From Acidobacteriota bacterium (lineage in GTDB: Bacteria; Acidobacteriota; Terriglobia; Terriglobales; Acidobacteriaceae), in the NCBI GenBank assembly GCA_018268915.1, contig JAFDVQ010000003.1:124001-188000 (forward strand): a stretch of DNA of 64,000 nucleotides, in the 5' to 3' direction. This document shows, in pieces, positions 2,806-17,494 of this stretch. Each line of letters opens with the position of its first letter. Within the stretch, counting starts at the first letter, position 1. Position numbers and translations under genes: made by a program. The notes beneath the pieces are model-generated. The model saw only the letters and a program-made list of their open reading frames with translations, was not told the origin of the DNA and did not search any database.

Positions 2806-4194
2806 TCACATTTCCGCGGTCATGTCGGCGTTCTCAAACCGCGTATAGCGCGAGATGAAGTTCAGGTGCACTGTACCCGTCGGGCCGTTGCGCTGTTTGG
2901 CGATAATGATCTCCGACTTCGCGCGGTCCGACTCGCTCATCTCTTCATCGCGGTTGTAATAGGCCTCGCGATGAATGAACATCACAACGTCGGCGTCCTG
3001 TTCGATCGAGCCCGATTCACGCAGATCGCTCAGCATCGGGCGCTTGTCGTCTCCGCGCCGCTCGCTCGCACGAGACAGCTGCGAAAGCGCGACCACAGGA
3101 ACATCTAATTCCTTGGCCAGCGCCTTCAACCCACGCGAAATTGCCGACACTTCCTGCGTGCGGTTCTCATAGCGTTTGCCGCCTGCGGTCGGCAGGGTAG
3201 CACTCATCAACTGGAGGTAGTCGACAACGACGAGGTCCAGTCCGCCCAGCGTCTGCCGCATGCGCCGCGCCTTGGCGCGCATCTCCGCCAGCGAAATGCC
3301 CGCCGTGTCGTCGATGAATAAACGCGACTCAACCAGCTGCTCCAGCCCCCGAACCAGCTTGTCGTGATCCTCGCGACGGATGAAGCCTGTTTGGAGCGCT
3401 CTCTGGTCAACCCACGCCTGCGACGCCAGCATGCGTCGCAACAACGACTCCTTGCTCATCTCCAGGCTGAAGACAGCGACGATCGCATTGTGATTCACCG
3501 CCGCATTCTGCGCAATGTTGATCGCAAATGCCGTCTTTCCCATCGACGGACGGGCCGCGATGATGATCAGTTCGCCCTTCTGGAGTCCGCTCGTATTCTC
3601 GTCCAGCTTGGTGAAGTCGGTTTCGAGCCCAGTGACGGCGCGACTATTGTTGTAAAGATTGTCAATCGACCCGAACGAATCGGCGACGATCCGATCGAGC
3701 GCCACGAGGCCGCCGGAAACGCCCTTCTCGCTCACCTCGAGAAGGGCGGTCTCCGCCGCGCCGATAACCTCCAGTGCTGTCTCGCTCTGGTCTGCCGCCC
3801 GCGCAATTGCCGCGGAGCAGATCAGCATCAGCCGACGCAGCAGGCTCTTGTCCTTGACGATTCGGACATAGTCCTCGATAACCGGCCGCAGCGGCAGACC
3901 CTCTGTCAGCGAAGCCAGATAAGCGACGCCGCCAACGGACTCGACCTCTTTGTATCGCGACAATTCGTGCGAGAGCGTGACGATGTCCACGGCCCGCTGC
4001 TCGTTCATCAGATCGCTCATCCGCTGGAAGATGCGCTTGTGAGAATCCAGCGAGAAGTCGTCAGCCTCCAGTTTCTCGGCTGCTTCCGAGTGGAACGAGT
4101 TGTCGAGCAGGATCGCGCCAAGAATCGTCTTCTCAGCATCGATATTCGCCGGCAATCCGGCATCCAGGGATGTCAGGTCTGGCAGGGTGGCCAT
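2806..4194 (-). CDS. dnaB: Replicative DNA helicase DnaB
   Basis: This 462-residue protein is full length for DnaB. The N-terminal helical domain (NIDAEKTILGAILLD) is followed by the RecA-type ATPase: Walker A ARPSMGKT at 214-221, Walker B LVVVDYLQLM at 321-330, the SQLSR motif at 371-375 and the arginine-finger region LSDLRESGSIEQDADVVMF. It unwinds DNA at the replication fork as a hexameric ring in the cytoplasm. It lies 74 bases downstream of the last gene of the first Tad-like triplet on the same strand with no visible terminator between, so read-through is possible, although a functional link is not implied. Confidence 0.97.
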   Translation of the reverse strand: MATLPDLTSLDAGLPANIDAEKTILGAILLDNSFHSEAAEKLEADDFSLDSHKRIFQRMSDLMNEQRAVDIVTLSHELSRYKEVESVGGVAYLASLTEGLPLRPVIEDYVRIVKDKSLLRRLMLICSAAIARAADQSETALEVIGAAETALLEVSEKGVSGGLVALDRIVADSFGSIDNLYNNSRAVTGLETDFTKLDENTSGLQKGELIIIAARPSMGKTAFAINIAQNAAVNHNAIVAVFSLEMSKESLLRRMLASQAWVDQRALQTGFIRREDHDKLVRGLEQLVESRLFIDDTAGISLAEMRAKARRMRQTLGGLDLVVVDYLQLMSATLPTAGGKRYENRTQEVSAISRGLKALAKELDVPVVALSQLSRASERRGDDKRPMLSDLRESGSIEQDADVVMFIHREAYYNRDEEMSESDRAKSEIIIAKQRNGPTGTVHLNFISRYTRFENADMTAEM

Positions 4195-4268: not shown

Positions 4269-4763
4269 TCAGTTCGCAATCACCATCTGCGAAGTGCTCG
4301 AAAGGCTAAGACTTGTGCTCCGCCAAAAGGGAATGGCAAACGGAAATGCATACGTTATCTGTACTTTGACAGCATTATTGGGCGCATTACACTGACTTCC
4401 ACAAGCCGTCCATGTTGCGGGTTGCGTGGAACTGACACTTAACCAGGTCACAGTCGCCGTGAGGTTGCTGGAGTTGATTCCCGGGTAGGCGTTCTGTCGG
4501 ACCCAGGTCTGCAACTGCGCTTGAGTTATTTGGCAATCTGGCATGCCACTACAATTCGCTCCGCGAACCATCGCATATCGACTCGCTGATCGGCTGGCGT
4601 CGGATACGAAATTGTACGAATACAGAGCAAAGCAGCACTGAATCAGTCCGAACATCATCATGATTACGACAATGGACGACAGCGCAAATTCAACCAGCGC
4701 GGAGCCTTCTTCCCCCCGCAATGCTCGCAGATATCTCTTGCCGGCCAGTTCTGGATCTGTCAT
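4269..4763 (-). CDS. TadE-like pseudopilin, triplet 1, third gene
   Basis: This 164-residue protein has a basic N-terminus, the prepilin-like EEGSALVEFALSSIVVIMMM segment (conserved Glu five residues into the hydrophobic helix) and a C-terminal extracytoplasmic domain rich in Thr, Ser and Cys. It matches the third genes of the other triplets: N-x-V-x-D-A-S-R-x-A-S-R-Y-A-M-V-R-G-x-x-C after the helix, a W..C...CNAP element and a carboxy-terminal SLSSTSQMVIAN. TadE proteins are minor pseudopilins of Flp/Tad pili. It overlaps the gene before it by four bases (ATGA), showing tight coupling. Confidence 0.85.
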   Translation of the reverse strand: MTDPELAGKRYLRALRGEEGSALVEFALSSIVVIMMMFGLIQCCFALYSYNFVSDASRSASRYAMVRGANCSGMPDCQITQAQLQTWVRQNAYPGINSSNLTATVTWLSVSSTQPATWTACGSQCNAPNNAVKVQITYAFPFAIPFWRSTSLSLSSTSQMVIAN

Positions 4764-5254
4764 TGAAGCACCTTCTGAACTGCCCTGCCCTGGATGGTGT
4801 AGCTCATGGGCGTTCCAGGCAAGTGAAATCCGGGATTAAAGACTGCCTGTGTCTGAACGGTCAGAATTGTTTCGATATGCGAGGTCGGGCAATCCGTTGA
4901 CAGACAGGAAGAGCTGGAACCATCCGAGCATATGCAAGTGTGGGAGACCGTCGTTGTGCCAAGAGAAATGTTTGGAGCATCAGCCGCGGCGGCATTCTGT
5001 ATCCCTGTAGTATCTCCAGACGTCAACGCGCTCTGTGCGCCATATTGGACCCCAGCCATCGCCGCGTTTGAAACTCCGATTGCCGTATAGGCGGCGGTTC
5101 CGAATTCAGCCGCGCCCAGGAACAGAAGGAGAAAGAACGGCATCATGAGTGCGGTTTCGACGAGCGCTCCGCCTTCTCTTCCCCACACTCTGATTATCTG
5201 GCCCTTTACAACAACGTTCGCTTTGCGAAGAGTTCCTTGAAAGATCATGCTCAT
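4760..5254 (-). CDS. TadE-like pseudopilin, triplet 1, middle gene
   Basis: This 164-residue protein begins with a basic leader and the helix EGGALVETALMMPFFLLLFL, typical of TadE, followed by AEFGTAAYTAIGVSNAAMAG, and then a Cys-rich segment HTCICSDGSSSSCLSTDC. The CxCSDG cluster recurs in the middle genes of the other triplets and marks them as one paralogous series distinct from the third genes. The C-terminus PGFHLPGTPMSYTIQGRAVQ is likewise shared. It overlaps both neighbours by four bases. It is likely a membrane-anchored minor pseudopilin exposed outside the inner membrane. Confidence 0.85.
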   Translation of the reverse strand: MSMIFQGTLRKANVVVKGQIIRVWGREGGALVETALMMPFFLLLFLGAAEFGTAAYTAIGVSNAAMAGVQYGAQSALTSGDTTGIQNAAAADAPNISLGTTTVSHTCICSDGSSSSCLSTDCPTSHIETILTVQTQAVFNPGFHLPGTPMSYTIQGRAVQKVLQ

Positions 5255-6579
5255 TCCACCATCACAAGCTTTGAAAGAACTGAGTTGGGGTTTGTGATCA
5301 CTGCATAATTCGTATCCGTGATGGACCCGCTACCCGTCACCTTGATCGTGTCGACAATGATGTCCAGGGAGACATTCAAACTACCGGAGCCGGTTAGCGT
5401 TAGTGGGGACGTCGGCGCATACAAGATGCCTTGAATCTTGTCGCCACCCGAGCCTGTAATCGACATCGCATGCGTATCCCCGGACGGCTGGTAGATAAGC
5501 ACGCCGCTATACGCTCCAGAAGTAGGCGCCGTCAGATTCAGGTTTCCACTGCCGGTCAGCGTGTTGCTGCCCTGGGTGTAAAAAGTCACGGCGGTTCCCG
5601 TCATGGAGCCTGAGCCCGTCAGCGCCAGGTCTCCACCGATGGTGTAAAGCCCTGAGCCCAGTGTCAGAGAAGAACTTCCCGTGCTCTTGAAGTCTCCAGA
5701 GATCGTGTAGTTTCCTGCACCCAGAATCAGCTTTCCGCTTCCGGTGTTCTTCAAGTCTCCGTTGATGATGTAGTTTCCCGGATTCAGCGTAAGCGTTCCG
5801 CTTCCCGTGTTCGAGATCGAATTGTAGGTGCCCGGGTCGAGTGTCTTGTTGCCGCTGCCGGTGTTCTTTGGGTCACAATCGGAGAGCGAGCAAGTGCCTG
5901 TCGGAATCGACGGCGGACTCAGGTTCAGCGGATCGGCCGCCGGCCCGATTCCTGTCGTAGGAGGATTGGGTAAGATATGTCCCGATCCCGTAACGCTGTA
6001 CCCGCCCACGATTCCAATCGCCTTCGCAGAGATGGAACCGCTTCCCGTCAGCGACATAGCATTGCTTGCGTTGGAATCATCGTAGATGGCGCAGTTCTGC
6101 GCTGTGATAGATCCTGAACCCGTGAGAGAAACATCTGTTCCTGATCTCGACAGTGCCCAGATGCAGGCATCGATCACTCCGCTTCCAGCTACGGCTCGTG
6201 CCTTCACATTCACGGTGTTGATGTGAAACATCTTCATAAAGAACGTCGGTGCTGGATCAGTCACGATTGCTTCAATGAATCCAGTCTTGCCTACGTAAGG
6301 CCCGTAATGAGGCGGCGCATTGATGACGACATTAGCCGACGTCACTCCATTTGACGCTGCTGCCACCTTGGCCGCGGCCTGGGCCGAAATCGTTGAATTG
6401 TTGTATTTGTAGTCGAGAGCTCCAGCGGCAGCCGCCGCGTCAGCCGCCACCTGCATATCTCGTTTCGCCTTGAACAGTAAGCCGACATCAACAGAGAGCG
6501 CCGCGAATCCAAGAAGTACCGTCATGCACAGCGCCACGACAACCAGAGTCTGCCCCAATTCATTCTTCAGGCCCTTCAT
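5251..6579 (-). CDS. TadG-like protein with TGSG repeats, triplet 1, first gene
   Basis: The start is set at ATG 6577-6579, because GAGAGG lies 8 bases upstream and the protein then begins MKGLKNELGQTLVVVALCM like the other triplets. A longer frame to 6603 would add eight residues. The 442-residue protein has the Tad N-terminal helix (GQTLVVVALCMTVLLGFAAL) and the signature KRDMQVAADAAAAAGALDY. From about residue 145 on it contains twelve TGSG-type motifs (one reads TGSS) spaced mostly 15-25 residues, with alternating hydrophobic strands (GNYIINGDL, GNYTISGDF, GLYTIGGDL) suggesting a beta-helix or beta-solenoid. The C-terminal segment GILYAPTSPLTL aligns with the other three TadG-like proteins. 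Role: envelope-associated, probably pilus-related. Confidence 0.85.
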   Translation of the reverse strand: MKGLKNELGQTLVVVALCMTVLLGFAALSVDVGLLFKAKRDMQVAADAAAAAGALDYKYNNSTISAQAAAKVAAASNGVTSANVVINAPPHYGPYVGKTGFIEAIVTDPAPTFFMKMFHINTVNVKARAVAGSGVIDACIWALSRSGTDVSLTGSGSITAQNCAIYDDSNASNAMSLTGSGSISAKAIGIVGGYSVTGSGHILPNPPTTGIGPAADPLNLSPPSIPTGTCSLSDCDPKNTGSGNKTLDPGTYNSISNTGSGTLTLNPGNYIINGDLKNTGSGKLILGAGNYTISGDFKSTGSSSLTLGSGLYTIGGDLALTGSGSMTGTAVTFYTQGSNTLTGSGNLNLTAPTSGAYSGVLIYQPSGDTHAMSITGSGGDKIQGILYAPTSPLTLTGSGSLNVSLDIIVDTIKVTGSGSITDTNYAVITNPNSVLSKLVMVE

Positions 6580-6641
6580 GCAATGACCTCTCAGGCATGC
6601 CAACCCCTGGCTGACGTAGCATTGCCAGGAAACAACGCGTC

Positions 6642-6704
6642 GAAACTTGCGCCAGGGGATTGGCTTTAGCCTCAGCCGGCACGCTATTCACGGCTGAAAG
6701 TTTC
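6642..6704 (-). promoter_or_regulatory. Candidate structured leader element, triplet 1
   Basis: On the minus strand, 63 bases upstream of the first TadG-like gene, a 63-nt segment is bounded by complementary arms GAAACTT (6698-6704 read on minus) and AAGTTTC (6642-6648). Its 3' part reads GGCGCAAGTTTC, similar in place and sequence to the 3' motif of the other three leaders. A second hairpin with an 8-bp stem, CCCCTGGC/GCCAGGGG (6604-6611 with 6651-6658), lies close to the ribosome-binding site and would compete with the first arm. Switching between the two is an inference. Confidence 0.35.
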
Positions 6705-6920
6705 CTCAACTACAAATGCATTTTCGAGGGAGCGGAATCGCACGAAAGTGGCAACGAGCTCGTGTAAATATTCATGCCTGCCGGTGCGTCTAGTAGGGTA
6801 CAGCTCATCAATCTGATCGAAAGCGAACACTCTGGGTGCTGGAGCACTTCAGCTTTCATTTTGTGAACGGAATCAGAGAAGCCATCAAAGTCCGCCGAGA
6901 CCACCTGGCGCAGAAACGAG

Positions 6921-6949
6921 AAGGCCCCAACTCAACGAGAAGGGGCCAA
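6921..6949 (-). terminator. Probable terminator after triplet 2
   Basis: A hairpin with 6-bp GGCCCC/GGGGCC arms (6923-6928 and 6942-6947) and a 13-base loop lies 70 bases past the end of the second triplet. On the minus strand it is followed by the pyrimidine-rich TTCTCGTTTCTG rather than a perfect T-run, so termination efficiency is uncertain. It separates triplet 2 from the leader of triplet 1. Confidence 0.5.
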
Positions 6950-7018
6950 CCTCAGCAGCGTTAGGGATGACGGCGCGGGCACCGAACACTCAGTCTCCCG
7001 CCAGCCGTCTGGCTGAGC

Positions 7019-7567
7019 TTATTGAGCAACAATCATTGTCGATGTGCTCCCAAGATTGATGCTGTAGTTCTTGAAAAATGGCAGATTCAACGTATACGGA
7101 TAGCTCATCGCGACGGTGATCATGCTGCCGGGAGCGTTGCAATTGGTAGCACAGTCAGACCAGGTGGTGGTCGTCTTGTAAGTTGTGGAATCGGTGACTG
7201 TCGATGCGGTCTTGTAGGAGACAGTGATACATGGATTAGCGGTCGTGCACTGCGACCAGTTCAGCGCGCCAACAGACTTCGCATAGTTCTGGATTGTCGC
7301 TTTGCTCGCGTTGCAGTTATCCATGGTAGGCGTGTTGGTGCTGCATTGCGAGCCCCGCACGGCCGCCCAACGCGCCGTATCCCGAGTCACCTCGGCCACT
7401 GTGTTGTAGTGGTAGCACGCCATGCTCACCTGGAACACGCTGATGAACGTGCCGAGGATGATAATCGAGGAGATGGCGAACTCCACGAGCGCGCTCCCGG
7501 ATTCTTCCTGCGTTCCCCGCCTGGTAGCCTTGCCGAGCCTCTTGAGCGTCTTGCTGATATTCATCAC
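7019..7567 (-). CDS. TadE-like pseudopilin, triplet 2, third gene
   Basis: This 182-residue protein has the TadE helix EESGSALVEFAISSIIILGT, then CYHYNTVAEVTRDTARWAAV and RGSQC, and a C-terminal domain with W-S-D-C-A-T-N-C-N-A-P and a closing LGSTSTMIVAQ. It is the counterpart of the third genes in triplets 1, 3 and 4. AAGGAA 5 bases before the first of two adjacent ATGs supports the start at 7567 (7564 is also possible). A 28-base gap separates it from the middle gene, the widest spacing inside any of the four triplets. Confidence 0.85.
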   Translation of the reverse strand: MMNISKTLKRLGKATRRGTQEESGSALVEFAISSIIILGTFISVFQVSMACYHYNTVAEVTRDTARWAAVRGSQCSTNTPTMDNCNASKATIQNYAKSVGALNWSQCTTANPCITVSYKTASTVTDSTTYKTTTTWSDCATNCNAPGSMITVAMSYPYTLNLPFFKNYSINLGSTSTMIVAQ

Positions 7568-7595
7568 AGTTCCTTTGTCCCGTTCGCAGCGAATT

Positions 7596-8063
7596 CTATT
7601 GAAGACAGGTCTGAGACGCCTGACCCGAGATCGTGTACGTTGCTGGCAGCCCCGGCCAGTGAATCAGCGGACCGAGAGTCGCCTGCGTCTGTACCTTCAA
7701 TGTCTGCACAATGTGCGTGTTGGAACAGTCCGTGTTCGCCCCCGATACGACAGTCCCGTCGGAGCACGCATAGGTTGACGAGGAGCTGACTGACAGTCCT
7801 GGAATATTTCCGGCATCCGTCTGCGCAGCCAATGTGATTCCGGCGGTATCGCCCGACGTGCCGCCGGTCTGCGCTCCATAAGCCACCCCTGCCTTGGCCG
7901 CGCTTACCACTTCAAGCGATGTATATGCCACACGCGAGAACTCAACCGCGCCCAGCACCAGCATGAAGAGCAGCGGCAGTGTAAGACATGCCTCGACCAG
8001 CGCTCCGCCCTCATCCTGAGTGCGAGCTTTTGCCAAAAACCTGCGGAGTACTAATACCTTCAT
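7596..8063 (-). CDS. TadE-like pseudopilin, triplet 2, middle gene
   Basis: This 155-residue protein has a basic leader, the TadE helix DEGGALVEACLTLPLLFMLV, and AVEFSRVAYTSLEVVSAAKA followed by GVAYGAQTGGTSGDTAGI, which is nearly identical in pattern to the middle gene of triplet 1 (GVQYGAQ...TSGDTTGI). The Cys cluster reads YACSDG...NTDC, so one Cys of the CxCSDG motif has become Ala. The ending PGLPATYTISGQASQ matches the triplet 1 protein. AAGGAA is correctly placed before the ATG, overlapping the stop region of the TadG-like gene 10 bases upstream. Confidence 0.85.
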   Translation of the reverse strand: MKVLVLRRFLAKARTQDEGGALVEACLTLPLLFMLVLGAVEFSRVAYTSLEVVSAAKAGVAYGAQTGGTSGDTAGITLAAQTDAGNIPGLSVSSSSTYACSDGTVVSGANTDCSNTHIVQTLKVQTQATLGPLIHWPGLPATYTISGQASQTCLQ

Positions 8064-8073
8064 GGCTCTTTCC

Positions 8074-9393
8074 TTACTCGATCAGCGATAGAACACGGTT
8101 CAGGGTAGTCGATGCATTTGCCTTGTCGTAGCTGTATGCAACAGTCAGCGTCGATGCCTTGTCGTAAAGCTGGTTGGCAACAATTCCGGTCGCCGTCACG
8201 CCACCGCCATTGTCTTGCAGATAGACTTCACCGCCTGGTGCATAGATATATCCGTCAAGCACTTCGTTGTTGCTGCCGAACTGCACCTGCAGCGTCTTCG
8301 TGTTCGATGGCGGCTGGAAGATTGCGATGCCATCGAAGCTGCCGGAAGTCGGCCCATAGATGCTCAGCAACGAATTGGAATCCTGCTTCATCGTTCCGTC
8401 GCCGATATCCAGCACAGCTCCGCTGGTATTGGAGAAGGATTTCGTGCTCGATGTATAGGTTCCAGTTCCGAACTTCACATTAGAGCTGGTGTCAAACTCA
8501 ACGCCATGCTGGAAGTAATAAACAATTCCCGAACTCGCCCCTGGGAAATTAATTGTTCCCGAAACCTTGACAGGGTTGTTAATGTTCCCGCCGGTGAAGC
8601 AGACCACTCCGCTCGCGCTTGGGGTTGGGATCTGGCTTGCCGACGTTATGCTCGTTAAGTTCGTACCGTTAGCCCCGCAGTCACTGCTGCTGGGCCCGTT
8701 CAGGTTGCCCCAGGGGCTCTTCCGTACACCGGAATTTAAGGTTGTTGGTGTCGGGCTCGTTTGATGCTGCAAGTTCGCGTTACCGACGACGTCGATGAAC
8801 GGTGCATTCACCGTTCCTGCGTTTCCTGTAACTCCCATCGCATCGGTGGTGTTGGAGTTGACGTAGATTCCGCAACTCGGTGACTCGATGTCATATTTTC
8901 CTTGAACGTCCAGTCCAGGCCCGCTCGGATTCATCACCCAGATACAAGCCAGACCATTCGTCGGCGTTCCCGCAACAGCTCTTGCCATCACCCCGACACG
9001 CTTCCCGATGAAGATTGCCGATGTGGGCTGTTTCGCGATGGCTTCCACGAACATGCCGCTAGCGGTGCCGGTCTGCGGTCCATTTACGGGAGGAGTATTG
9101 ATGCAGATGGTGTTTGCCGTTGCGCTGTTGCAGTCACCCGATGAGCAGGTCCCAGAGAAGCCGTTTGCCGTGGCCGCATTGCACGCGGCGGTTCTCGCAG
9201 AGTCAGTGGAGTGGTTATAGAGATAGTTGAGCGCACCAGCCAGGGCTGCTGCATCGGCCGCGCCTTGAAGATCCCTTTTCGTGTGATACATGACGCCCAT
9301 ATCCAGGGCGAGCGCCATAAACCCGATCAATGCTGACCCGCAAAGTGCTGTCAGAACGAGTGTTTGGCCCTTTTCATCGCGAAGAATTCTCAT
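8074..9393 (-). CDS. TadG-like protein, triplet 2, first gene
   Basis: This 439-residue protein begins MRILRDEKGQTLVLTALCGS and has the Tad signature KRDLQGAADAAALAGALNY. Its extracytoplasmic part includes a conserved C-I-W-V-M-N-P segment (about residue 150), an NCG/CGIYVNS motif and a C-terminal region QFGSNNEVLDGYIYAPGGEV shared with triplets 3 and 4. There are no TGSG repeats. AAGGAAG lies just before the ATG. TadG-like proteins are anchored by one N-terminal helix and face outward. Whether it is a pilus component or a separate surface protein cannot be decided from sequence. Confidence 0.85.
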   Translation of the reverse strand: MRILRDEKGQTLVLTALCGSALIGFMALALDMGVMYHTKRDLQGAADAAALAGALNYLYNHSTDSARTAACNAATANGFSGTCSSGDCNSATANTICINTPPVNGPQTGTASGMFVEAIAKQPTSAIFIGKRVGVMARAVAGTPTNGLACIWVMNPSGPGLDVQGKYDIESPSCGIYVNSNTTDAMGVTGNAGTVNAPFIDVVGNANLQHQTSPTPTTLNSGVRKSPWGNLNGPSSSDCGANGTNLTSITSASQIPTPSASGVVCFTGGNINNPVKVSGTINFPGASSGIVYYFQHGVEFDTSSNVKFGTGTYTSSTKSFSNTSGAVLDIGDGTMKQDSNSLLSIYGPTSGSFDGIAIFQPPSNTKTLQVQFGSNNEVLDGYIYAPGGEVYLQDNGGGVTATGIVANQLYDKASTLTVAYSYDKANASTTLNRVLSLIE

Positions 9394-9548
9394 GCTCTTC
9401 CTTCACACGGGATTTAACAGCTGTCTTCCTCATTCCGCGCGGAATCCGCGCCGCCGTACAGCGCTACTCGCGAATTTCCTATGAAGACTGGAAAAGCGGA
9501 ACGTGTGTGAATTCTAGGAAGTAACGAAAGGCAGAACAAGCAATTTAA

Positions 9549-9607
9549 GGTACTTTCCGATTACCTAAGTGCCGAAGCCCCAGAAGGAATGTAAAGACCC
9601 GCGTACC
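9549..9607 (-). promoter_or_regulatory. Candidate structured leader element, triplet 2
   Basis: This 59-nt segment lies 156 bases upstream of the second TadG-like gene, bounded by 5-base arms GGTAC and GTACC (9549-9553, 9603-9607). It contains a GC-TTCG-GC hairpin core and the 3' motif GGCACTTAGGTAATC (9559-9573 read on minus), which corresponds to GGACCTAAGTAACTC in the triplet 3 leader. The 5' half does not match the other leaders well, so this is the weakest of the four. Confidence 0.3.
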
Positions 9608-9706
9608 GTAACGTAACCTCGGCGTCCAGGCTCTTTTACAGCGGCTTCAGAGTCTCTTCGACTTGCGGCCACTTGGCGCAACTGCGATCTTTACCAGTAC
9701 CGGCCG

Positions 9707-10246
9707 CTACTGAACGATAGTCATGCTCGATGTGCTGCCGATCAGGAGCGTGTTCGCCTTGATGTACGGGATCACCAGTGGGTAGGAATACGTCACCTTC
9801 ACCTGCACCTGGTTGCCGACGATATTGTTACCATTCTTTGTCGTCGAGCAAGTGGTCCACGTAGCCGGGTTGCCCGCAGTACACCATTGAACGGTCGTTA
9901 CCGCACTAGCCGAGTATGGATAGCCAAGCCCCTTGACGTATTGAGCAATGTCATTCGCAGTCGCGCCGCCTGCATCGTTATCGGTCGGGGAACAATATGC
10001 AGCAGACTTCAGGTAAGTGGCGCAGTTCACTCCGCGAACGATGGCAAAGCGCGTTGCCTCGCGGGCCGCATCGGCAGCGTAGTGGTGGCAGTACAGCGCT
10101 ATCGACAGCTGGATGATTCCGAACAACATGGGAATCAGAATCAGGCACGAGATCGCCATCTCAACAAGAGTTCCGCCGTCTTCCTTTAAACCCAACAGAC
10201 TCGTCTTGTCGGTGCGCTCTAGAACTCTCAGAATGGTCGTCTTCAT
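9707..10246 (-). CDS. TadE-like pseudopilin, triplet 3, third gene
   Basis: The open frame extends to 10384, but the true start is taken as the ATG at 10244-10246, whose first base is shared with the stop of the preceding gene (TGATG). The protein then begins MKTTILRVLERTDKTSLLGL and aligns with its paralogues. The extra 46 codons upstream lie inside the middle gene. The 179-residue product carries the helix EDGGTLVEMAISCLILIPML, FGIIQLSIALYCHHYAADAA and REATRFAIVRGVNC, with C-terminal IGSTSSMTIVQ. It is a likely minor pseudopilin co-translated with the middle gene. Confidence 0.85.
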   Translation of the reverse strand: MKTTILRVLERTDKTSLLGLKEDGGTLVEMAISCLILIPMLFGIIQLSIALYCHHYAADAAREATRFAIVRGVNCATYLKSAAYCSPTDNDAGGATANDIAQYVKGLGYPYSASAVTTVQWCTAGNPATWTTCSTTKNGNNIVGNQVQVKVTYSYPLVIPYIKANTLLIGSTSSMTIVQ

Positions 10247-10728
10247 CAGTTCGAGACCACCTGGCTCGATTTCCCCTTCAATGTCAGTGTGGGATTCCAA
10301 CCGGGAAGACTGACCATCGGTGAAAACGTGGACTGAGTCGTTACCGTAACCGTTGTTACCATCGGCAGTCCGTTGCCGGAGCACGTCGTGTTATTCGTGC
10401 ACACCACACTGGTCCCGTCAGAGCACTCGCAGACCGTAGTCGGATCATTCACCGTGATGGCGTTACTTCCAACCAGATTCGGCGAATCGGTTCCACCGGC
10501 TTTCTTGATGCCGGCAGTATCCGCCAGCGCAGTTGGAGTGGAGGACGCATAGACCGCAGCAGCATGCGCCGCATTTGCAACCTCGATGGATGCGTAGGCC
10601 AGCCTTGCAAACTCCGCTGCGCCAAGCAGCATGAGGCACAGGAAAGGGAGAGACAGGGTTAGCTCTACGAGCGCCGAACCCTCTTCCCTCACTCCGCAAC
10701 AACTCATCGCTTTGAAGAACTTCATCAT
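10246..10728 (-). CDS. TadE-like pseudopilin, triplet 3, middle gene
   Basis: This 160-residue protein carries the TadE helix EEGSALVELTLSLPFLCLML and EFARLAYASIEVANAAHAAA, then the complete Cys cluster VCECSDGTSVVCTNNTTC that defines the middle-gene series. AGGAG lies 9 bases before the ATG and overlaps the TAG stop of the TadG-like gene, which ends 12 bases upstream. The domain order and length match the middle genes of the other triplets. Confidence 0.85.
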   Translation of the reverse strand: MMKFFKAMSCCGVREEGSALVELTLSLPFLCLMLLGAAEFARLAYASIEVANAAHAAAVYASSTPTALADTAGIKKAGGTDSPNLVGSNAITVNDPTTVCECSDGTSVVCTNNTTCSGNGLPMVTTVTVTTQSTFSPMVSLPGWNPTLTLKGKSSQVVSN

Positions 10729-10740
10729 TCGAGCCAGCTC

Positions 10741-12105
10741 CTACTGAACAAGCGTTACGTGCTTGAAGGGGGTTGTTGTCGGGTTGTAATCGCTGTAGTT
10801 CGTCAGGTTCACTTTTCCATTCACATACGCTTGCCCGACAACCAGAACAGTGGCGTTCACTGCGCCGCCCTGGTCATGCAGATCTACCGCCGCGCTCTGG
10901 GCCACCACAGCTCCGTCGAAAATAGAGCTCCCGCTGCCAAACTGAAGCCCTAACTGTTGCGTATCTCCCGGCGGCTGGTAGATTGCAATCCCGACATAAG
11001 TGCCGCTTTGTGGCGCATAGTCGTAGAACGTGGTTGCGGTCCCGCTGTCGTAGACTCCTCCATCCATGCTGCCAGGACTGTTGCCGGTTACGATGACCGT
11101 CGCACCCCCGGTGGGCGTGTTGGACCCGATCGTCGTCGCGCCCTTGATCTTTACGCCGGTTTCGAAGACGTAGATCCCGGCACCTAGCGTTGCACTGTCC
11201 ACAGTCACCGGATTACATGAAATCGTCGTCACGCCATGCTTCGTTGTGGAGCTACACGTGCCATTGGCGTAGCACTGGTACTTGCCATACCCAGGGCCTG
11301 TGATCGATCCAGTAAGCGTGGTGGCGTTTGTCACCGTAGAGCAGTTCGTCCTTGGATCAGCAGGTATTCCGGACCACTTGGCAGGAAGGCTCTGTACTCC
11401 GGTATTTAGGTTGACCGTCGGGCCGGGATCGCCCTTGCAACTGCCGCCGCCCTGTCCTCCATGCACATTGACGGATGCAAAATCGGACTTCCCGGCATTT
11501 CCCGTCACACACAGCGCTCCAGGATCATCCGAGTTGACGTAGATCCCACAGCCAGGCGCGTTGACTGAACCTGCACCGTGGATCCAAAAAGAGCTCGAAG
11601 CGTGAGGATCCATCACGTACATGCACGTCTGCGAAGATCCTGGCGCGCCGGCCACCGCCATCGCCGACACGTTGATCGTGTTGAACGAACTGGACTTGAA
11701 CAGCCACTGGCTCATCGTCGACATGAAGATCGTCGGATTGGGCGTATAAACAGTCGCCTGGACGCAGGATGCGCAGGCAACACCGCCAGGGTTCAACGTG
11801 GGAGACGGCGTCACTGAAACATGAATGGTCTTCCCGGCATTCGAGAGGTTGTCCTGCGCCGCCGCTGTCGCCTTCGAAGTAATATTCGGCGAACCGGAGC
11901 CGTTGTAAAACATCTCCGTCGCCCCCGCCATTGCGGCCGCATCGGCTGCGCTCTGCATTTGACGACGCGTATGCAGCAGGACGCCAACATCCACCGCAAG
12001 CCCGAGGGCGCCAAGTAATACCCCCATGCAAAACACGGTCATCACAAGGGTCTGCCCTTGCTCGTTGAACAGCATTTTCAAAAGGAGGACTTTCGACCGC
12101 CTCAT
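10741..12105 (-). CDS. TadG-like protein, triplet 3, first gene
   Basis: This 454-residue protein starts MRRSKVLLLKMLFNEQGQTL, with GGAGG 6 bases before the ATG. An overlapping ATG four bases upstream is out of frame. The Tad signature reads RRQMQSAADAAAMAGATEMF. The outer part shows the shared C-M-Y-V-M-D-P and CGIYVNSDDPGALCVTGNAG segments, which correspond to the CGIYVNS and CIT/CVT-G motifs of triplets 2 and 4. The C-terminus LQFGSGSSIFDGAVVAQSAA then matches the QFGS...LDG...AP region of the paralogues. No TGSG array is present. Confidence 0.85.
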   Translation of the reverse strand: MRRSKVLLLKMLFNEQGQTLVMTVFCMGVLLGALGLAVDVGVLLHTRRQMQSAADAAAMAGATEMFYNGSGSPNITSKATAAAQDNLSNAGKTIHVSVTPSPTLNPGGVACASCVQATVYTPNPTIFMSTMSQWLFKSSSFNTINVSAMAVAGAPGSSQTCMYVMDPHASSSFWIHGAGSVNAPGCGIYVNSDDPGALCVTGNAGKSDFASVNVHGGQGGGSCKGDPGPTVNLNTGVQSLPAKWSGIPADPRTNCSTVTNATTLTGSITGPGYGKYQCYANGTCSSTTKHGVTTISCNPVTVDSATLGAGIYVFETGVKIKGATTIGSNTPTGGATVIVTGNSPGSMDGGVYDSGTATTFYDYAPQSGTYVGIAIYQPPGDTQQLGLQFGSGSSIFDGAVVAQSAAVDLHDQGGAVNATVLVVGQAYVNGKVNLTNYSDYNPTTTPFKHVTLVQ

Positions 12106-12204
12106 CCATCACCTCCAGTGCACCCGTACAGCTCAACTTGACAGCTCTGCGCACTGTGGAGTCCGAGCAGGCAGCTTGCGCCAGTCAGGAGTTCCGCAGC
12201 TTCA

Positions 12205-12260
12205 GTTCTCGGCTGGAGTTACTTAGGTCCAATGGGGCTTTGGCTTACCCTGACGAGAAC
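12205..12260 (-). promoter_or_regulatory. Candidate structured leader element, triplet 3
   Basis: A 56-nt segment 100 bases upstream of the third TadG-like gene has perfect 7-bp arms GTTCTCG/CGAGAAC. Inside, on the minus strand, AGGGTAAGCCA is followed by a short hairpin (CCA...TGG) and then ACCTAAGTAAC. The triplet 4 leader has the same order: AGGGCGAATCCA, a CCAT...ATGG hairpin and CGCTAGAGGTAAC. The arms differ in sequence between the two but stay complementary, which is what a conserved RNA structure would show. Confidence 0.4.
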
Positions 12261-12486
12261 GGTTAGTACTAAGACGAATATGCTCGTTTGGGTGTGGGGA
12301 TCACAATGCCACTAACGCGTTAATTACTCAGCGCGTTACGAAAATTATTGCCCTGTAAAGAAATCAATAAGATAGAAGTTACTCGAGACACGTTACCGGG
12401 CAGAGATGCACCCTTTCCGGTGCACCCCCTGACCGCTTCAGTTATTGAGTTTTGAGAACCCGAGCTTTGGGTGGTCCTCAGCTCCG

Positions 12487-13062
12487 TCACTCGTTGATCA
12501 CCATCTGGGAGGTGCCGGTGAGGTTCAACGTGGCGCTCTTCCAGAAAGGAACGACGAGGGGAAACTGGTACACGACTGACACCTGAACAGCATTCCCCGG
12601 CGTGTTGCATTCCTGATTGTTGTTCGGGTTGGTGGTGGTGCAGGTTGTATCCCAGTCCGTCTTCGCGAAGCCGCCGGTCCCCGAAGTGATATGTTGCGCC
12701 AGGTAGGTCGTGGTCACCGTCAGATTATTCGGGTTAATGCCGGGATATGCGAGCCCCTGCACGAATCCTGTAAGTGCAGAAGGAGCAGTGGTGTTAACTC
12801 CTGTGTGCGGTCCCATATTGCAGTTGGGAAACGTCGCCGAAATAGTGCACGACATAACCCCGCGTACGGCGGCATAACGAGTCGCCTGCCTCGATGCCAT
12901 GTTCACGAAGTTGTACGCGTATAGGGCGAGCGAGAATTGAATGATCCCGAAGATCAGCGGAAGAAATACGAACGCGCTGACCAGGGCCATCTCAACGAGC
13001 GTATTGCCTTCCTCGCCCCGGCTTGGACACAGAAGTCGTTTTGCTGAGCCTGTCATCTTCAA
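12487..13062 (-). CDS. TadE-like pseudopilin, triplet 4, third gene
   Basis: This 191-residue protein has the TadE helix EEGNTLVEMALVSAFVFLPL and IQFSLALYAYNFVNMASRQA followed by TRYAAVRGVMSC, with a C-terminal CNTPGNAVQVSVVYQFPLVV and LTGTSQMVINE. It is the longest third gene and overlaps the middle gene by four bases (ATGA). The pattern YAYNFVNMASR is closest to the triplet 1 protein (YSYNFVSDASR), suggesting triplets 1 and 4 share this gene more recently than triplets 2 and 3 do. This is a by-eye impression. Confidence 0.85.
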   Translation of the reverse strand: MKMTGSAKRLLCPSRGEEGNTLVEMALVSAFVFLPLIFGIIQFSLALYAYNFVNMASRQATRYAAVRGVMSCTISATFPNCNMGPHTGVNTTAPSALTGFVQGLAYPGINPNNLTVTTTYLAQHITSGTGGFAKTDWDTTCTTTNPNNNQECNTPGNAVQVSVVYQFPLVVPFWKSATLNLTGTSQMVINE

Positions 13063-13592
13063 TTGAGCACCTGCTGCTGCGCATATCCCTTCAACGAAAA
13101 TGCGCCACTAAAAAGGTTCGGGACCGAAGTGACCGGCGAACACTGCGCGGATGTATTTACCGTCACGTTGACTACGGGCAGGCCGTTTCCTGAGGCGCAA
13201 GTGTATGGAGTTCCCGCTGCACACGCCGCACCGCCTGAGCACGTGCAGGAGCTCGTAGCATTGACGGTGAAATTTGTGCAGGTAGCGAAGGTTCTCGGGG
13301 CATCCTTCTTTGCTGCGGCGTACATTCCGCTCGTGGGATCGCAATTCCCACCGACAAACACTCCCTTGCAATCGGTGAACCCACCTCCGTTCATCGCTCC
13401 GTACTGCGCTGCTGCTCGCGCCGCGTTGGACATCTCGGACGCCCTGAAAGCGAAGTCGCCCATCTCGACCGCACCCAACAGCATGGCAAATACAACCGGA
13501 ACTGTAAGCGCCGTCTCCACCAGAGCTGAACCGCGATCCCCGCGCCACAGCAGCTTCAACCAGCCAAAACTTCTTAAACGCGCGATCTTCAT
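13059..13592 (-). CDS. TadE-like pseudopilin, triplet 4, middle gene
   Basis: This 177-residue protein has the helix DRGSALVETALTVPVVFAML and AVEMGDFAFRASEMSNAARA. It then carries two Cys-rich blocks, CKGVFVGGNC and CTCSGGAACAAGTPYTC, the second corresponding to the CxCSDG cluster with Asp replaced by Gly. AGGAG precedes the ATG by 5 bases and overlaps the TadG-like stop 8 bases upstream. It is the most Cys-rich member of the series (nine cysteines in the outer domain), so disulphides are likely in the extracytoplasmic region. Confidence 0.85.
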   Translation of the reverse strand: MKIARLRSFGWLKLLWRGDRGSALVETALTVPVVFAMLLGAVEMGDFAFRASEMSNAARAAAQYGAMNGGGFTDCKGVFVGGNCDPTSGMYAAAKKDAPRTFATCTNFTVNATSSCTCSGGAACAAGTPYTCASGNGLPVVNVTVNTSAQCSPVTSVPNLFSGAFSLKGYAQQQVLN

Positions 13593-13600
13593 CTTCTCTC

Positions 13601-15085
13601 CTACTCCACCAATTCCGGAAAGTTCAGAGGTGAATCAGCGTGTTGATAGTTGTAGTTCGCGGTGATGTTCAGCTCGCCGTTGATGAAAGTGGAGTTGACG
13701 ATTAGATTCGTAACCCCGATGCCGGTCCCGCCGCTGTCTTGAATGTACAGGGCTGAATATGGTGCATAGATCATGCCATCGAGCTGTCCCGAGTTGCTGC
13801 CAAACTGAATCTGAATGCAGGAATTTGGATCCCCGTTAGAAGTTACGTTTATTCCGTGATACGAAGAGTCGCATGACGCAACATTGTTCGCCGGATTAAC
13901 GATAAACGCCATGCCATTGTAGGCGTACTGTGTTCCGCCTGCGACACTCGCGGGAGAGTTAATGGTGATGCTTGGCCCACCGCCGGCGCTCGTGAAATTA
14001 CACTTGCCATTCGAAGTGTTGTAAGTACCCTGGCAGAATGCCCCGCCGCTCAGATCGACTGTGCCGTAAATCGTGTTGGTGCCACTGAGCACGAGTCCCT
14101 GTTCGAAGAGGTACAACGTGTTCTTCGATGTGTCGCTATTACTGCCCAGCGTCACTCCAGAAAGGGTGGTGGGAATGCCCCCGGCGGCCTTGAAACAGAC
14201 CACGTTGTAGTTGGTGCTCGCAGTGTTGAAGCCGCCAACATTGACTGACTTTGGATTAAGCGTGGTCGAGTTCGTAACGGTCGCCGCCGTGACCACGTTC
14301 CCGCCGGCAGCTGGGTTGCATATGTTCGTGTTGGTTGGGTCAGGGAATGAAAAAGAATTTCCAAGCGGATCTTGGAACTGGCTCCCTCCGGTCGTAACCC
14401 CTCCGTAGAGCTTGTTGCAATTTCCTGATGTGCTCTGTCCTCCGGGGAGAATGACCGCTGGGACGTTGAATTGTGCGCCAGAATTCTGGCCCGTGATGCA
14501 GAACGCTTGTGGCGAACTGGAATCCACCGTCCAGGAACAGTTGGGAGAAGTTACGTCAGCGTTTCCCTTGATGGTGAGGGCCCCTGGATCGGTCTGGTTA
14601 AGTAGGTATACGCACGAAGCTCCCGCTACGATCCCGCCAACTGCTCTGGCGGCAACGTTCATGGGACTGATACCGGATGCGCCCCCACCGGGGAATAAGC
14701 CGGAGAAGGTGCCCATGAAAATGGTCGGATTTGGCCGGTTCATGATCACTTCGACATAAGACGGTCCGGTATGCCACCCGTTCACAGGCGGCAAATTGAC
14801 CGTGACCTGATTCTTCGCGGTAGTGATGCACGCTGAATCGGACGCTGGGCAAACGTTGCTGGCGGCAGCAGCCTTTGCAACCGAAATCACATTGCCGGAA
14901 CCGTGATAGTAGTACTCAATTGTTCCGGCGATCGCGCCTGCGTCCGCTGCAGTTTGGATCTTGCGCTGAGCGCGAAATAGCACGCCCACATCGATCGACA
15001 GTGCCATGAAGCCCATCAAACAGCACATCAGCAATGCCGTGAAAACCAGCGTCTGCCCATCTTCTTTCCGAAACAGCTTCATCAT
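13601..15085 (-). CDS. TadG-like protein, triplet 4, first gene
   Basis: The start is placed at ATG 15083-15085, with GGAGG 7 bases upstream, giving MMKLFRKEDGQTLVFTALLM like the other TadG paralogues. The frame open to 15187 would add 34 residues without homologous features. The 494-residue product has the Tad signature RKIQTAADAGAIAGTIEYYY, the shared C-V-Y-L-L-N segment and C-I-T-G, and the C-terminal QFGSNSGQLDGMIYAPYSAL region. It is larger than the other three through extra Gly/Asn/Thr-rich sequence in the middle. It heads the fourth operon of the array. Confidence 0.85.
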   Translation of the reverse strand: MMKLFRKEDGQTLVFTALLMCCLMGFMALSIDVGVLFRAQRKIQTAADAGAIAGTIEYYYHGSGNVISVAKAAAASNVCPASDSACITTAKNQVTVNLPPVNGWHTGPSYVEVIMNRPNPTIFMGTFSGLFPGGGASGISPMNVAARAVGGIVAGASCVYLLNQTDPGALTIKGNADVTSPNCSWTVDSSSPQAFCITGQNSGAQFNVPAVILPGGQSTSGNCNKLYGGVTTGGSQFQDPLGNSFSFPDPTNTNICNPAAGGNVVTAATVTNSTTLNPKSVNVGGFNTASTNYNVVCFKAAGGIPTTLSGVTLGSNSDTSKNTLYLFEQGLVLSGTNTIYGTVDLSGGAFCQGTYNTSNGKCNFTSAGGGPSITINSPASVAGGTQYAYNGMAFIVNPANNVASCDSSYHGINVTSNGDPNSCIQIQFGSNSGQLDGMIYAPYSALYIQDSGGTGIGVTNLIVNSTFINGELNITANYNYQHADSPLNFPELVE

Positions 15086-15369
15086 CGGTAGACCTCCCTG
15101 TCGCTTGACAGGCTTCTCTTCGAAACCTTGCTCACTTGCCCCGAGAAATTGCACCGGTCTGCACCACAGATAACCCGCCGGCCACATCTTGCTCCTGGCC
15201 CACCGCGCTACGTTCTCCGCACTGACGGAATGAAGCTCGGATTTCTTTACAACCAGCCTGGAAGAATTCGATTATCTGATTTACTCAGATTCGAAAGCAA
15301 TGAAAATGTGCAGGATAGCCGCTGTTTACGAGGCTCTCGCAGTAACTGCAACGAGGGAGAAAGTCACAC

Positions 15370-15424
15370 GCGCAAAGTTACCTCTAGCGCCATTCTCAGG
15401 CATGGATTCGCCCTACCCTTGCGC
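15370..15424 (-). promoter_or_regulatory. Candidate structured leader element, triplet 4
   Basis: This 55-nt segment lies 285 bases upstream of the fourth TadG-like gene, bounded by complementary GCGCAA/TTGCGC arms (15370-15375 and 15419-15424). Inside, on the minus strand, AGGGCGAATCCA leads into a CCAT...ATGG hairpin and then CGCTAGAGGTAAC. It matches the triplet 3 leader in order and spacing with different arm sequences. The long distance to the start codon is unlike the other leaders. Confidence 0.35.
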
Positions 15425-15458
15425 AGGGTTCAACTTAGCTCTAACCCCTTGGTGACAA

Positions 15459-16976
15459 CTATTTGGCTTCGGGCCGCCAACGCAGAATCGGCTTCCGCGC
15501 CGCCTGCACCTCGTCCAACCGCGAAACCCGGGTCGAGTGCGGCGCCGACTTCACCAGGTCAGGGGTTTCCTCGACCTCTTTGGCAATCGATCGCATCGCG
15601 TCGATGAAAAGATCCAGCTCTTCCAGAGACTCACTCTCAGTCGGCTCAATCATCAGCGCGCCATGCACAATCAGGGGAAAACTGACCGTATATGGATGGA
15701 AACCGTAGTCGATGAGCCGCTTGGCAATGTCGCCAGTCTTTACACCCTTCACAGCCTGCCGCTTGTCGCTGAAAACGACCTCGTGCATGGAAGGCGTCTT
15801 ATAGGGCAGCTCGTACAGGTCTTCAAGATTCTTGCGAATGTAGTTCGCGTTCAGCACGGCATCTTCGGTAGTCTGCCGCAACCCATCCGGCCCATTCGCA
15901 AGAATGTAAGCCAGTGCCCGGATAAACATGCCGGTGTTTCCGTAGAACGCCCGCACTCGCCCCACCGACTGCGGCCGGTCATACTCCCAATGCAACTCGG
16001 AATTTGTTTTCTGATCCCTGTTCCCTGATCCCTGTTCCCTCGTGAGCACCGGCGTCGGCAAAAACGGCTCCAGAAACTTCTTGCAGGCCACCGGCCCCGA
16101 TCCAGGCCCACCGCCCCCGTGTGGCGTCGAGAAGGTCTTGTGCAGGTTCAGGTGCATCACATCCACGCCGAAGTCGCCCGGACGCACCTTGCCCACCAGC
16201 GCGTTCATATTCGCGCCGTCCATATAGAGCAGCGCGCCCTTCGCATGCAGGATGTCAGCGATCTTGTGGATTTCGTTCTCAAAGACGCCCAGCGTCGAAG
16301 GATTCGTCAGCATCAGCGCCGCGGTGTCCTCATCCACTTGCCTTTCAAGGGCTTCCAGGTCGATTCCTCCCTGCGCGTTTGACTTCAGGTTCTCCACCTG
16401 GTAGCCGCAGATCGCTGCCGTCGCCGGATTGGTCCCATGCGCCGAATCCGGAATCAGAATCTTCCGCCGCGCATTTCCGCGCGACTCATGCCAGGCGCGC
16501 ACCAGCAAAATGCCGGTGAACTCGCCGTGCGCGCCCGCTGCCGGTTGCAGCGTGATCGTGTCCATGCCGGTAATCTCAATGAGGCACCGCTGCAGCAGAT
16601 CGATCACTTCAAGGACTCCCTGCGCCAGCGACTCCGGCCGATAAGGATGCGCATCCGCAAGCCCCTCGATCCGCGCCACAAACTCATTCACCCGTGGGTT
16701 GTACTTCATCGTGCACGAGCCCAGCGGGTACATCCCCAGATCGATCGCGTAGTTCCAGGTCGAAAGCCGAGTGAAATGGCGGATGATCTCGATCTCGCTC
16801 AACTCCGGCAGGCCAGCCTTCTCCTCGCGATACGCCGAACCGAGTGCAGCCTTCGCGTCGACTTCCGGCACGTCCAGCGGCGGCAGCTTGTAGCCGCGCT
16901 TACCCGGCGCCGACTTCTCGAATACCAAACCCTCGTTCTGCGTCTGATGCGGCCGAACCTTGCCCAATGAACTCAT
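15459..16976 (-). CDS. gcvPB: Glycine dehydrogenase (decarboxylating) subunit 2
   Basis: This 505-residue protein is the C-terminal half of split-type P protein. It carries the PLP-binding lysine in HLNLHKTFSTPHGGGGPGSG (K280) and the LGSCTMKYNPRVNE motif. With gcvPA it decarboxylates glycine and passes the aminomethyl group to the lipoyl arm of GcvH. ATG at 16974-16976 with AAAGGG 7 bases upstream is the start. An upstream TTG would add seven residues. The start overlaps the stop of the RAYT gene (ATGA). Residues around 320-330 (REQGSGNRDQK) are encoded by imperfect TGATCCC-type repeats at 16011-16040 and look like an insertion into the normal protein. Confidence 0.95.
   Translation of the reverse strand: MSSLGKVRPHQTQNEGLVFEKSAPGKRGYKLPPLDVPEVDAKAALGSAYREEKAGLPELSEIEIIRHFTRLSTWNYAIDLGMYPLGSCTMKYNPRVNEFVARIEGLADAHPYRPESLAQGVLEVIDLLQRCLIEITGMDTITLQPAAGAHGEFTGILLVRAWHESRGNARRKILIPDSAHGTNPATAAICGYQVENLKSNAQGGIDLEALERQVDEDTAALMLTNPSTLGVFENEIHKIADILHAKGALLYMDGANMNALVGKVRPGDFGVDVMHLNLHKTFSTPHGGGGPGSGPVACKKFLEPFLPTPVLTREQGSGNRDQKTNSELHWEYDRPQSVGRVRAFYGNTGMFIRALAYILANGPDGLRQTTEDAVLNANYIRKNLEDLYELPYKTPSMHEVVFSDKRQAVKGVKTGDIAKRLIDYGFHPYTVSFPLIVHGALMIEPTESESLEELDLFIDAMRSIAKEVEETPDLVKSAPHSTRVSRLDEVQAARKPILRWRPEAK
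16011..16040. repeat. TGATCCC-type heptamer repeats inside gcvPB
   Basis: CTGATCCCTGTTCCCTGATC and its continuation form two copies of a 15-base unit (TGATCCC plus TGTTCCC). The repeat is in frame and translated on the minus strand as QGSGNRDQ-like residues. Similar arrays lie at 33087-33141, 37447-37480, 43035-43095 and 60597-60651. Confidence 0.8.
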
Positions 16977-17494
16977 ATGTGGACCCTTTCGGAACAAATA
17001 GGAAGGGTACGGGCTTCAGCCCGTACGTGATGGCTCTCATCAACATCCCTGGGCTTTAGCCCCTGAGGAAAAGCCACATCTGGAAATCCGATATATGAAT
17101 AGGGGGAGAACAGCCCTAGTTTCACTGGATTCCTTCGGATATATTCCAAGTGTCGTTCCCAATCCTCTTCACCACGGATGCGATGGTCGGAGAATCCTGG
17201 CTGCCAAATGTCGGCTTTCCATGCAAACTCGTTTTTGGCTCGGAAAGAGAATCCGCCTTTGATGAGTTGTACGGCCTTCTCCAGAGACTCATTTGGCGTT
17301 ATCAAGAGGTGGAGATGATCGGGCATGACCACATACGCGTGTAGAGAGTAGCCGTTCCCGACGTAATGCAAGATTGTGGCTTCGCATAGTTTTGCCCAGC
17401 GATCATGTCGGAAGAAGGGCTGGCGTCGGGCCGTTTGCGTTGAGACGAAGTACGCCCCTTGCTGCTTCCGAACGTGTTCTCGAGTTGGGCGCAT
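16973..17494 (-). CDS. REP-associated tyrosine transposase (RAYT)
   Basis: This 173-residue IS200-like HUH protein shows YVVMPDHLHLLITPNESLEK (HLH of the HUH pair) and the downstream LEYIRRNPVKLGL with the candidate nucleophile Tyr, the hallmark of RAYT proteins. RAYTs cut single-stranded REP hairpins and are thought to spread them without moving themselves. The last 35 or so residues (FPQGLKPRDV, RAEARTLP) are translated from the REP sequences at 17007-17062. The gene sits between gcvPA and gcvPB and its stop overlaps the gcvPB start, so gcvPB translation may depend on it. Confidence 0.92.
   Translation of the reverse strand: MRPTREHVRKQQGAYFVSTQTARRQPFFRHDRWAKLCEATILHYVGNGYSLHAYVVMPDHLHLLITPNESLEKAVQLIKGGFSFRAKNEFAWKADIWQPGFSDHRIRGEEDWERHLEYIRRNPVKLGLFSPYSYIGFPDVAFPQGLKPRDVDESHHVRAEARTLPICSERVHI
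17007..17062. repeat. REP pair downstream of RAYT
   Basis: A perfect 20-bp palindrome with a 2-4 base loop, GTACGGGCTTCAGCCCGTAC (17007-17026), is followed by the related GGGCTTTAGCCC (17051-17062). Both lie inside the 3' end of the RAYT reading frame. They mirror the pair at 17508-17563 on the other side of the gene, giving an inverted arrangement around it. Confidence 0.9.

Follow-up and report, generated by a model that had tools for sequence, protein, structure and literature searches.

Twelve consecutive genes on the minus strand of an Acidobacteriota genome form four triplets, each coding for one TadG-like and two TadE-like proteins, and these triplets are very probably alternative, interchangeable tip complexes for the genome's single Tad pilus. 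This reading brings together several direct observations: the gene content of the array, the single machine in the genome, the linkage of triplets to tad operons in relatives, the clades formed by gene position, the slot-wise conservation of leaders, and one mosaic triplet in a sister species.

Layout and proteins of the array

The array occupies 4269-15085 of the window, the whole stretch of 64,000 nucleotides that was analysed. Triplets are named from T1, which adjoins the dnaB side, to T4, which adjoins the gcvPB side, and within a triplet G denotes the TadG-like protein, M the middle TadE-like protein and C the third, also TadE-like. T5 is a fifth triplet of the same genome, located outside the window on contig C16. 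G000 is the source genome of the window, G008 its sister species, and other G-numbers are genomes of relatives. All twelve open reading frames were found where they had originally been predicted:

15459..16997, minus strand: gcvPB, upstream border of the slot (slot comparison)
13601..15085, minus strand: T4 TadG-like tip protein, 494 aa, nearest gcvPB; PF13400, E 6.5e-9; lacks Glu5
13059..13592, minus strand: T4 middle TadE-like minor pilin, Cys-rich; PF07811, E 4.7e-10; GSALVE motif
12487..13062, minus strand: T4 third TadE-like minor pilin, TTG start; PF07811, E 6.3e-10
10741..12105, minus strand: T3 TadG-like tip protein, 454 aa; PF13400, E 2.2e-10
10246..10728, minus strand: T3 middle TadE-like minor pilin; PF07811, E 1e-9
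9707..10246, minus strand: T3 third TadE-like minor pilin; PF07811; ATG at 10246, overlapping the M stop by 1 base
8074..9393, minus strand: T2 TadG-like tip protein, 439 aa; PF13400, E 1.3e-9; AlphaFold2 pLDDT 71
7596..8063, minus strand: T2 middle TadE-like minor pilin; PF07811, E 3.3e-9
7019..7567, minus strand: T2 third TadE-like minor pilin; PF07811, E 3.6e-7
5251..6579, minus strand: T1 TadG-like tip protein, 442 aa, with TGSG beta-solenoid-like repeats; PF13400, E 8.8e-9; DUF7305, E 5.4e-7
4760..5254, minus strand: T1 middle TadE-like minor pilin; PF07811, E 7.7e-8
4269..4763, minus strand: T1 third TadE-like minor pilin; PF07811, E 1.9e-11
2806..4194, minus strand: dnaB, downstream border of the slot (slot comparison)

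Starts were corrected for the third gene of T3 (10246, not 10384) and for the T1 TadG gene (ATG at 6579). Inside triplets, neighbouring genes share 1-4 bases or have gaps of about 8-33 bases between them, in agreement with the close stops and starts described before, and 313-440 bases separate one triplet from the next. No gene besides the triplets was seen between dnaB and gcvPB. The array is unlikely to be an assembly artefact, because G001, a single-contig genome, has a three-triplet array in the same slot. Within dnaB, ARAGORN reports a 98-base tRNA-Gly (3655-3752, minus strand), which is probably a false call.

All of the twelve proteins pass the Pfam cut-offs at an N-terminal TadE (PF07811) or Tad (PF13400) domain, which bears out the predicted TadG-TadE-TadE assignment. 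E values range from 9e-9 to 2e-10 for PF13400 in the G proteins, among which T1 additionally passes DUF7305, and from 4e-7 to 2e-11 for PF07811 in the eight TadE-like proteins. The Cys cluster predicted in the middle protein is real and is centred on C-x-C-S-[DG]-G, with the first Cys missing in T2. The prepilin cleavage motif G|xxxxE is present in every M and C protein of the window (8/8). Glu5 is replaced by a non-acidic residue in all TadG-like proteins of the triplets, and is likewise missing in the vWA-type TadGs encoded elsewhere in G000. Absence of Glu5 is also known from tip-most pseudopilins such as GspK.

The TadG-like paralogues share 55% identity in the N-terminal helix versus 22-31% in the distal parts. 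Among orthologues of T1, T2 and T5, the TadG-like protein is at least as well conserved as M and C; therefore the variability lies chiefly between lineages, and distal domains are not always the faster-evolving parts. In AlphaFold2 models of the T1 and T2 G proteins, of modest confidence (pLDDT 67 and 71), a helix of about 50 residues leads into a small part resembling a pilin and then a distal domain rich in beta structure. The T1 model has its N-terminal helix at residues 9-60 and short regular strands in a solenoid-like arrangement at 245-350, and the distal domain of this protein is probably a beta-solenoid. A 63-base direct repeat (75% identical) is found at 5675-5800 of the T1 TadG gene; it encodes a 21-residue TGSG unit, which is likely to correspond to a solenoid rung. 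A PDB sequence search gave no match, and fold searches with the models gave no significant PDB match (best E 0.1).

A single Tad machine and its tip genes

The triplets had originally been described as lacking Tad machinery. This holds for the window, from which a complete tad locus is absent, and fails for the genome: a search of the latter located a single complete tad locus with Flp on contig C19, so that the array is not an orphan. The C19 locus contains genes for a secretin, RcpC/CpaB, a TadZ-like ATPase, TadA (the only true Tad ATPase of G000, C19:26676-27953), two T2SSF proteins, an A24 peptidase and Flp; the candidate prepilin peptidase is a PF01478 protein. The window triplets are unlinked to it. 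The locus includes no TadE, TadF or TadG, the place that holds tip genes in the operons of relatives being empty in G000. The remaining tip genes are dispersed. Besides the five triplets, for which the genome has one TadA, three pairs of TadE and vWA-TadG are found on contigs C15, C13 and C2, the vWA reading being made from sequence and from likeness to the classical type. TadG-like proteins number 8 in G000, 9 in G001 and 9 in G008, per one TadA in each case. Further Flp-like genes, besides that on C19, lie on C3 and C16. The Flp genes at three sites are placed at L034:7179-7373, near 6891-6998 of L036 and near 6761-6892 of L037; the mature parts of the C19 and C3 Flps are almost identical though the genes are unlinked.

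The association between triplets and the Tad machine is seen in relatives. In G017, a triplet stands in the tad operon itself, in the order TadZ-TadA-TadB-TadC-(unassigned gene)-G-M-C-(TonB-like, opposite strand)-CpaB, and it groups with T1 (support 100/100). In G006, the same operon place is occupied by TadE and vWA-type TadGs. In G013 (L047, G013:C130:10000-28000), three TadE and vWA-TadG pairs and one G-M-C triplet follow in series on a contig that ends in a partial tadA, both tip types thus occurring together. Both a true TadA and TadG-like proteins are lacking in G004 and G020. Several tad operons carry an additional gene 3′ of tadC (L079:4719-5576, L035:1-323), whose product starts like M..RK.CVYNQT.E.FLSLGV.

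Taken together with the single machine, the T1-type triplet in the G017 operon favours the first of two readings originally proposed, alternative minor-pilin tips working with a Tad apparatus encoded far away. The prepilin peptidase on C19 would trim the triplet proteins, and the two TadE-like pilins and the pilin portion of G would pack together into a three-helix base atop the Flp filament. The contact surface, which might bind ligands, would then be the large, exposed distal domain (probably a beta-solenoid in T1). One machine (RcpA, CpaB, TadZ, TadA, TadB and TadC) would be shared by all tips, and the separate leaders of the triplets might let the cell select the tip to make.

What the tips do is a further question. 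In a narrower form of the tip reading, they would be weapons for contact-dependent bacterial killing, as in Myxococcus, and not adhesins. The genetic architecture is the same as that of the KilLMN tips, but Tip1-3 of Myxococcus require T3SS* (PMC12075869). No companion needleless T3SS* as in Kil was found in G000: its sole FHIPEP protein is judged from its neighbours, an FlhB-like protein and a sigma factor, to be a flagellar-type FlhA. The lack of any FHIPEP hit outside the flagellar type makes a killing role less likely, and predation is not on record either; we regard this form as unlikely.

A different machine might also be served. Contig C7 encodes a type IV pilus or type II secretion machine, with a T2SSE protein (430 bits) adjoining a T2SSF protein, and the triplets could belong to it rather than to the Tad machine. 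However, the triplet proteins match Tad families, a triplet lies within the G017 tad operon, the G013 triplet stands alongside tad-type pairs, and relatives without tad have no TadG-like protein at all, which makes an assignment to C7 improbable.

The second reading originally proposed, a surface or envelope structure independent of the Tad pilus, could appeal to the triplets' own leaders and to their distance from the tad locus. Beta-solenoid domains, moreover, are found in non-pilus adhesins too. This reading is nevertheless very improbable, because triplets are linked to tad in G017 and G013 and are absent together with tad from G004 and G020; that each of the eight TadE-like proteins carries a prepilin cleavage motif speaks against it as well. 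The original proposal thus survives in its pilus-tip form.

History of the slot and exchange of triplet bodies

When M, C and pair-type TadE proteins of G000 and relatives are placed in one tree, they separate by position and not by triplet: all 13 M proteins fall into one clade (100/99) and all 13 C proteins into a second (100/98); the pair-type TadEs make up a third side of the tree (98/94). Such position clades never arise with shuffled labels. The correspondence of positions across triplets, as predicted, is therefore genuine, and the triplet is an old unit. Trees built for G, for M and for C agree on the partners of T2, T3 and T5. The T1 C protein pairs, with weak support, with another partner than T1 G and M, perhaps through recombination inside the triplet unit.

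In the concatenated tree, T1 groups with triplets that are dispersed or linked to tad (G001x3, G014c, G013b, G017), T2 with G001arr_3, T3 with G008arr_3 and G001arr_2, T4 with G023_1, and T5 with G001x1 and G008x2. Because T1-T4 have their partners in other genomes, the array is best read as a gathering of old, divergent lineages, with no recent quadruplication. The predicted duplication of the module as a unit thus stands in part: inheritance as a unit agrees with the position clades and the congruent partners of T2, T3 and T5, but duplication of the block in place does not, since closer kin are found elsewhere. A simple recent tandem quadruplication without functional meaning, for which the identical gene order of the four copies could be cited, is scarcely tenable and is ruled out by the concatenated tree, in which T1-T4 are not one clade (T2, T3 and T4 are closer to triplets of other genomes and T1 has its kin outside the array), and within-genome identities are just about 30-52%.

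Across the genus, the gcvPB-dnaB slot holds 0, 1, 3 or 4 triplets. The space measures 98-155 bases in G004, G010, G020 and G023, about 0.8 kb in G006 (too small for a triplet), 2.7 kb in G007 with one triplet, 8.4 kb in G008 and 8.9 kb in G001 with three each, and 11.3 kb in G000 with four. Of 247 genomes sampled from the phylum, 16 encode M-type proteins, and nearly all of these belong to the same family; G000 has the highest count with five, and the other carriers have one or two each.

Between G000 and G008, TadA is 100%, DnaB 99.6% and TadZ 97% identical. Among tips outside the array, identities are 79-84% for the pair type and 68-90% for T5. Array bodies are mostly at 31-65%: the best matches of T3 reach 42, 64 and 65%, and those of T1, T2 and T4 about 31-50%. 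The 300-base leaders, on the other hand, pair by slot, T4 with a1, T3 with a2 and T2 with a3 of G008. The leaders and one 3′ flank are as follows:

15086..15458, minus strand: T4 leader, slot-conserved; best match G008_a1 (E 2.7e-22), also G001_a1 (E 8.7e-16)
12106..12486, minus strand: T3 leader, slot-conserved; sole match G008_a2 (E 1.7e-18)
9394..9706, minus strand: T2 leader, slot-conserved; sole match G008_a3 (75% over 200 bases, E 8e-29)
6580..7018, minus strand: T1 leader region; no match among the array leaders tested
6912..7025, minus strand: T2 3′ flank with G+C hairpin GGCCCC...GGGGCC; 94.7% over 114 bases with the G008_a3 flank (E 4e-44)

The G001_a2 leader is not trusted in this comparison, no start codon having been found for it. 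Within G000, the leaders of paralogous triplets are not alike, and therefore no common regulator site is claimed. Rfam gave no match over the array, so the leaders are not explained by a known RNA family, and promoter and terminator scans showed no excess over shuffles. The counterpart of the T2 3′ flank lies after a3 in G008 (L046:13902-14012). The flank is more similar between the two genomes than dnaB DNA (94.7 versus 85%) and may be a constrained RNA or a terminator, the z value of its hairpin being only -1.9.

The G008_a3 triplet is a mosaic, with the T2 leader, leader peptide and 3′ flank placed around a T3-like body. It is T2-like through the leader peptide (MRILREEKGQ versus MRILRDEKGQ), turns T3-like thereafter, and is T2-like again at the last C codons. 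Of the sites that separate T2 from T3, 121 agree with T2 and 22 with T3 in the flanks, and 527 agree with T3 and 356 with T2 in the body, where the middle of G is undecided. The contrast between flanks and body has a p value of 1.6e-22, which is indicative, adjacent sites not being fully independent; the mosaic pattern, as read from the sequences, does not depend on it. This pattern indicates that at least one cassette body has been swapped between slots.

On the interpretation that we favour, interchangeable tips of one pilus, the gcvPB-dnaB slot would gain and lose triplets, and bodies would be swapped between slots while the leader, leader peptide and 3′ flank of each slot remain. It is quite possible, though slightly less likely than not, that the slot as a whole is a tip-cassette array, in which leader, leader-peptide codons and 3′ flank are fixed and whole three-gene coding bodies replace one another through recombination at or close to two points, the codon of prepilin cleavage and the final stop codon. 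If this is true, regulation and tip specificity would evolve independently.

Comparison with known systems

Segments of a shufflon are inverted by its own recombinase with repeats. The slot contains no shufflon-type recombinase and one weak inverted repeat of 19 bases. In the PilV shufflon of conjugative type IVb pili (e.g., TP114, PMC9045228), alternative tip adhesin parts are likewise placed behind a constant N-terminal part; here, however, whole triplets are exchanged and not just C-termini, as seen so far only between species. The top fold match of the T1 model is ComZ, a competence pilin of Thermus thermophilus with a large beta-solenoid domain (PDB 6qvi), though the match is non-significant (E 0.1, TM 0.15) and ComZ is not a Tad protein.

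Within Tad pili, TadEFG or CpaJ-CpaK-CpaL resembles the triplets in that models place a large TadG-like pilin, accompanied by two small ones, at the tip (Caulobacter CpaL, PMC12607857). CpaL has a vWA domain, whereas the triplet TadG-like proteins show none and that of T1 is DUF7305 and solenoid-like. The three other TadG-like proteins of G000 resemble the vWA type of CpaL.

The closest precedent is the Kil (Tad) pilus of Myxococcus xanthus, in which four KilLMN sets, Tip1-Tip4, are interchangeable tips, any one of them being enough for piliation (Herrou et al., 2025; PMC12075869). In both systems, several paralogous three-gene sets, each of two smaller pilins and a large pilin with a variable distal part, accompany one Tad pilus and mostly lie away from the machine genes, the comparison resting on architecture and shared Tad families. 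Unlike the KilLMN sets, the four sets described here are in tandem in one slot, vWA pairs are present elsewhere and bodies appear to have been exchanged between slots. The text of that paper makes no mention of Acidobacteriota, and a literature search on Tad pili in Acidobacteria returned nothing relevant. Interchangeable Tad tips are thus already known from a predator, and our analysis suggests an Acidobacteriota version of them, in a compact array whose turnover is much faster than that of the machine. It offers a ready subject for work on the ligands of Tad tips, on the choice of one tip among several, and on the evolution of pilus specificity with an unchanged machine.
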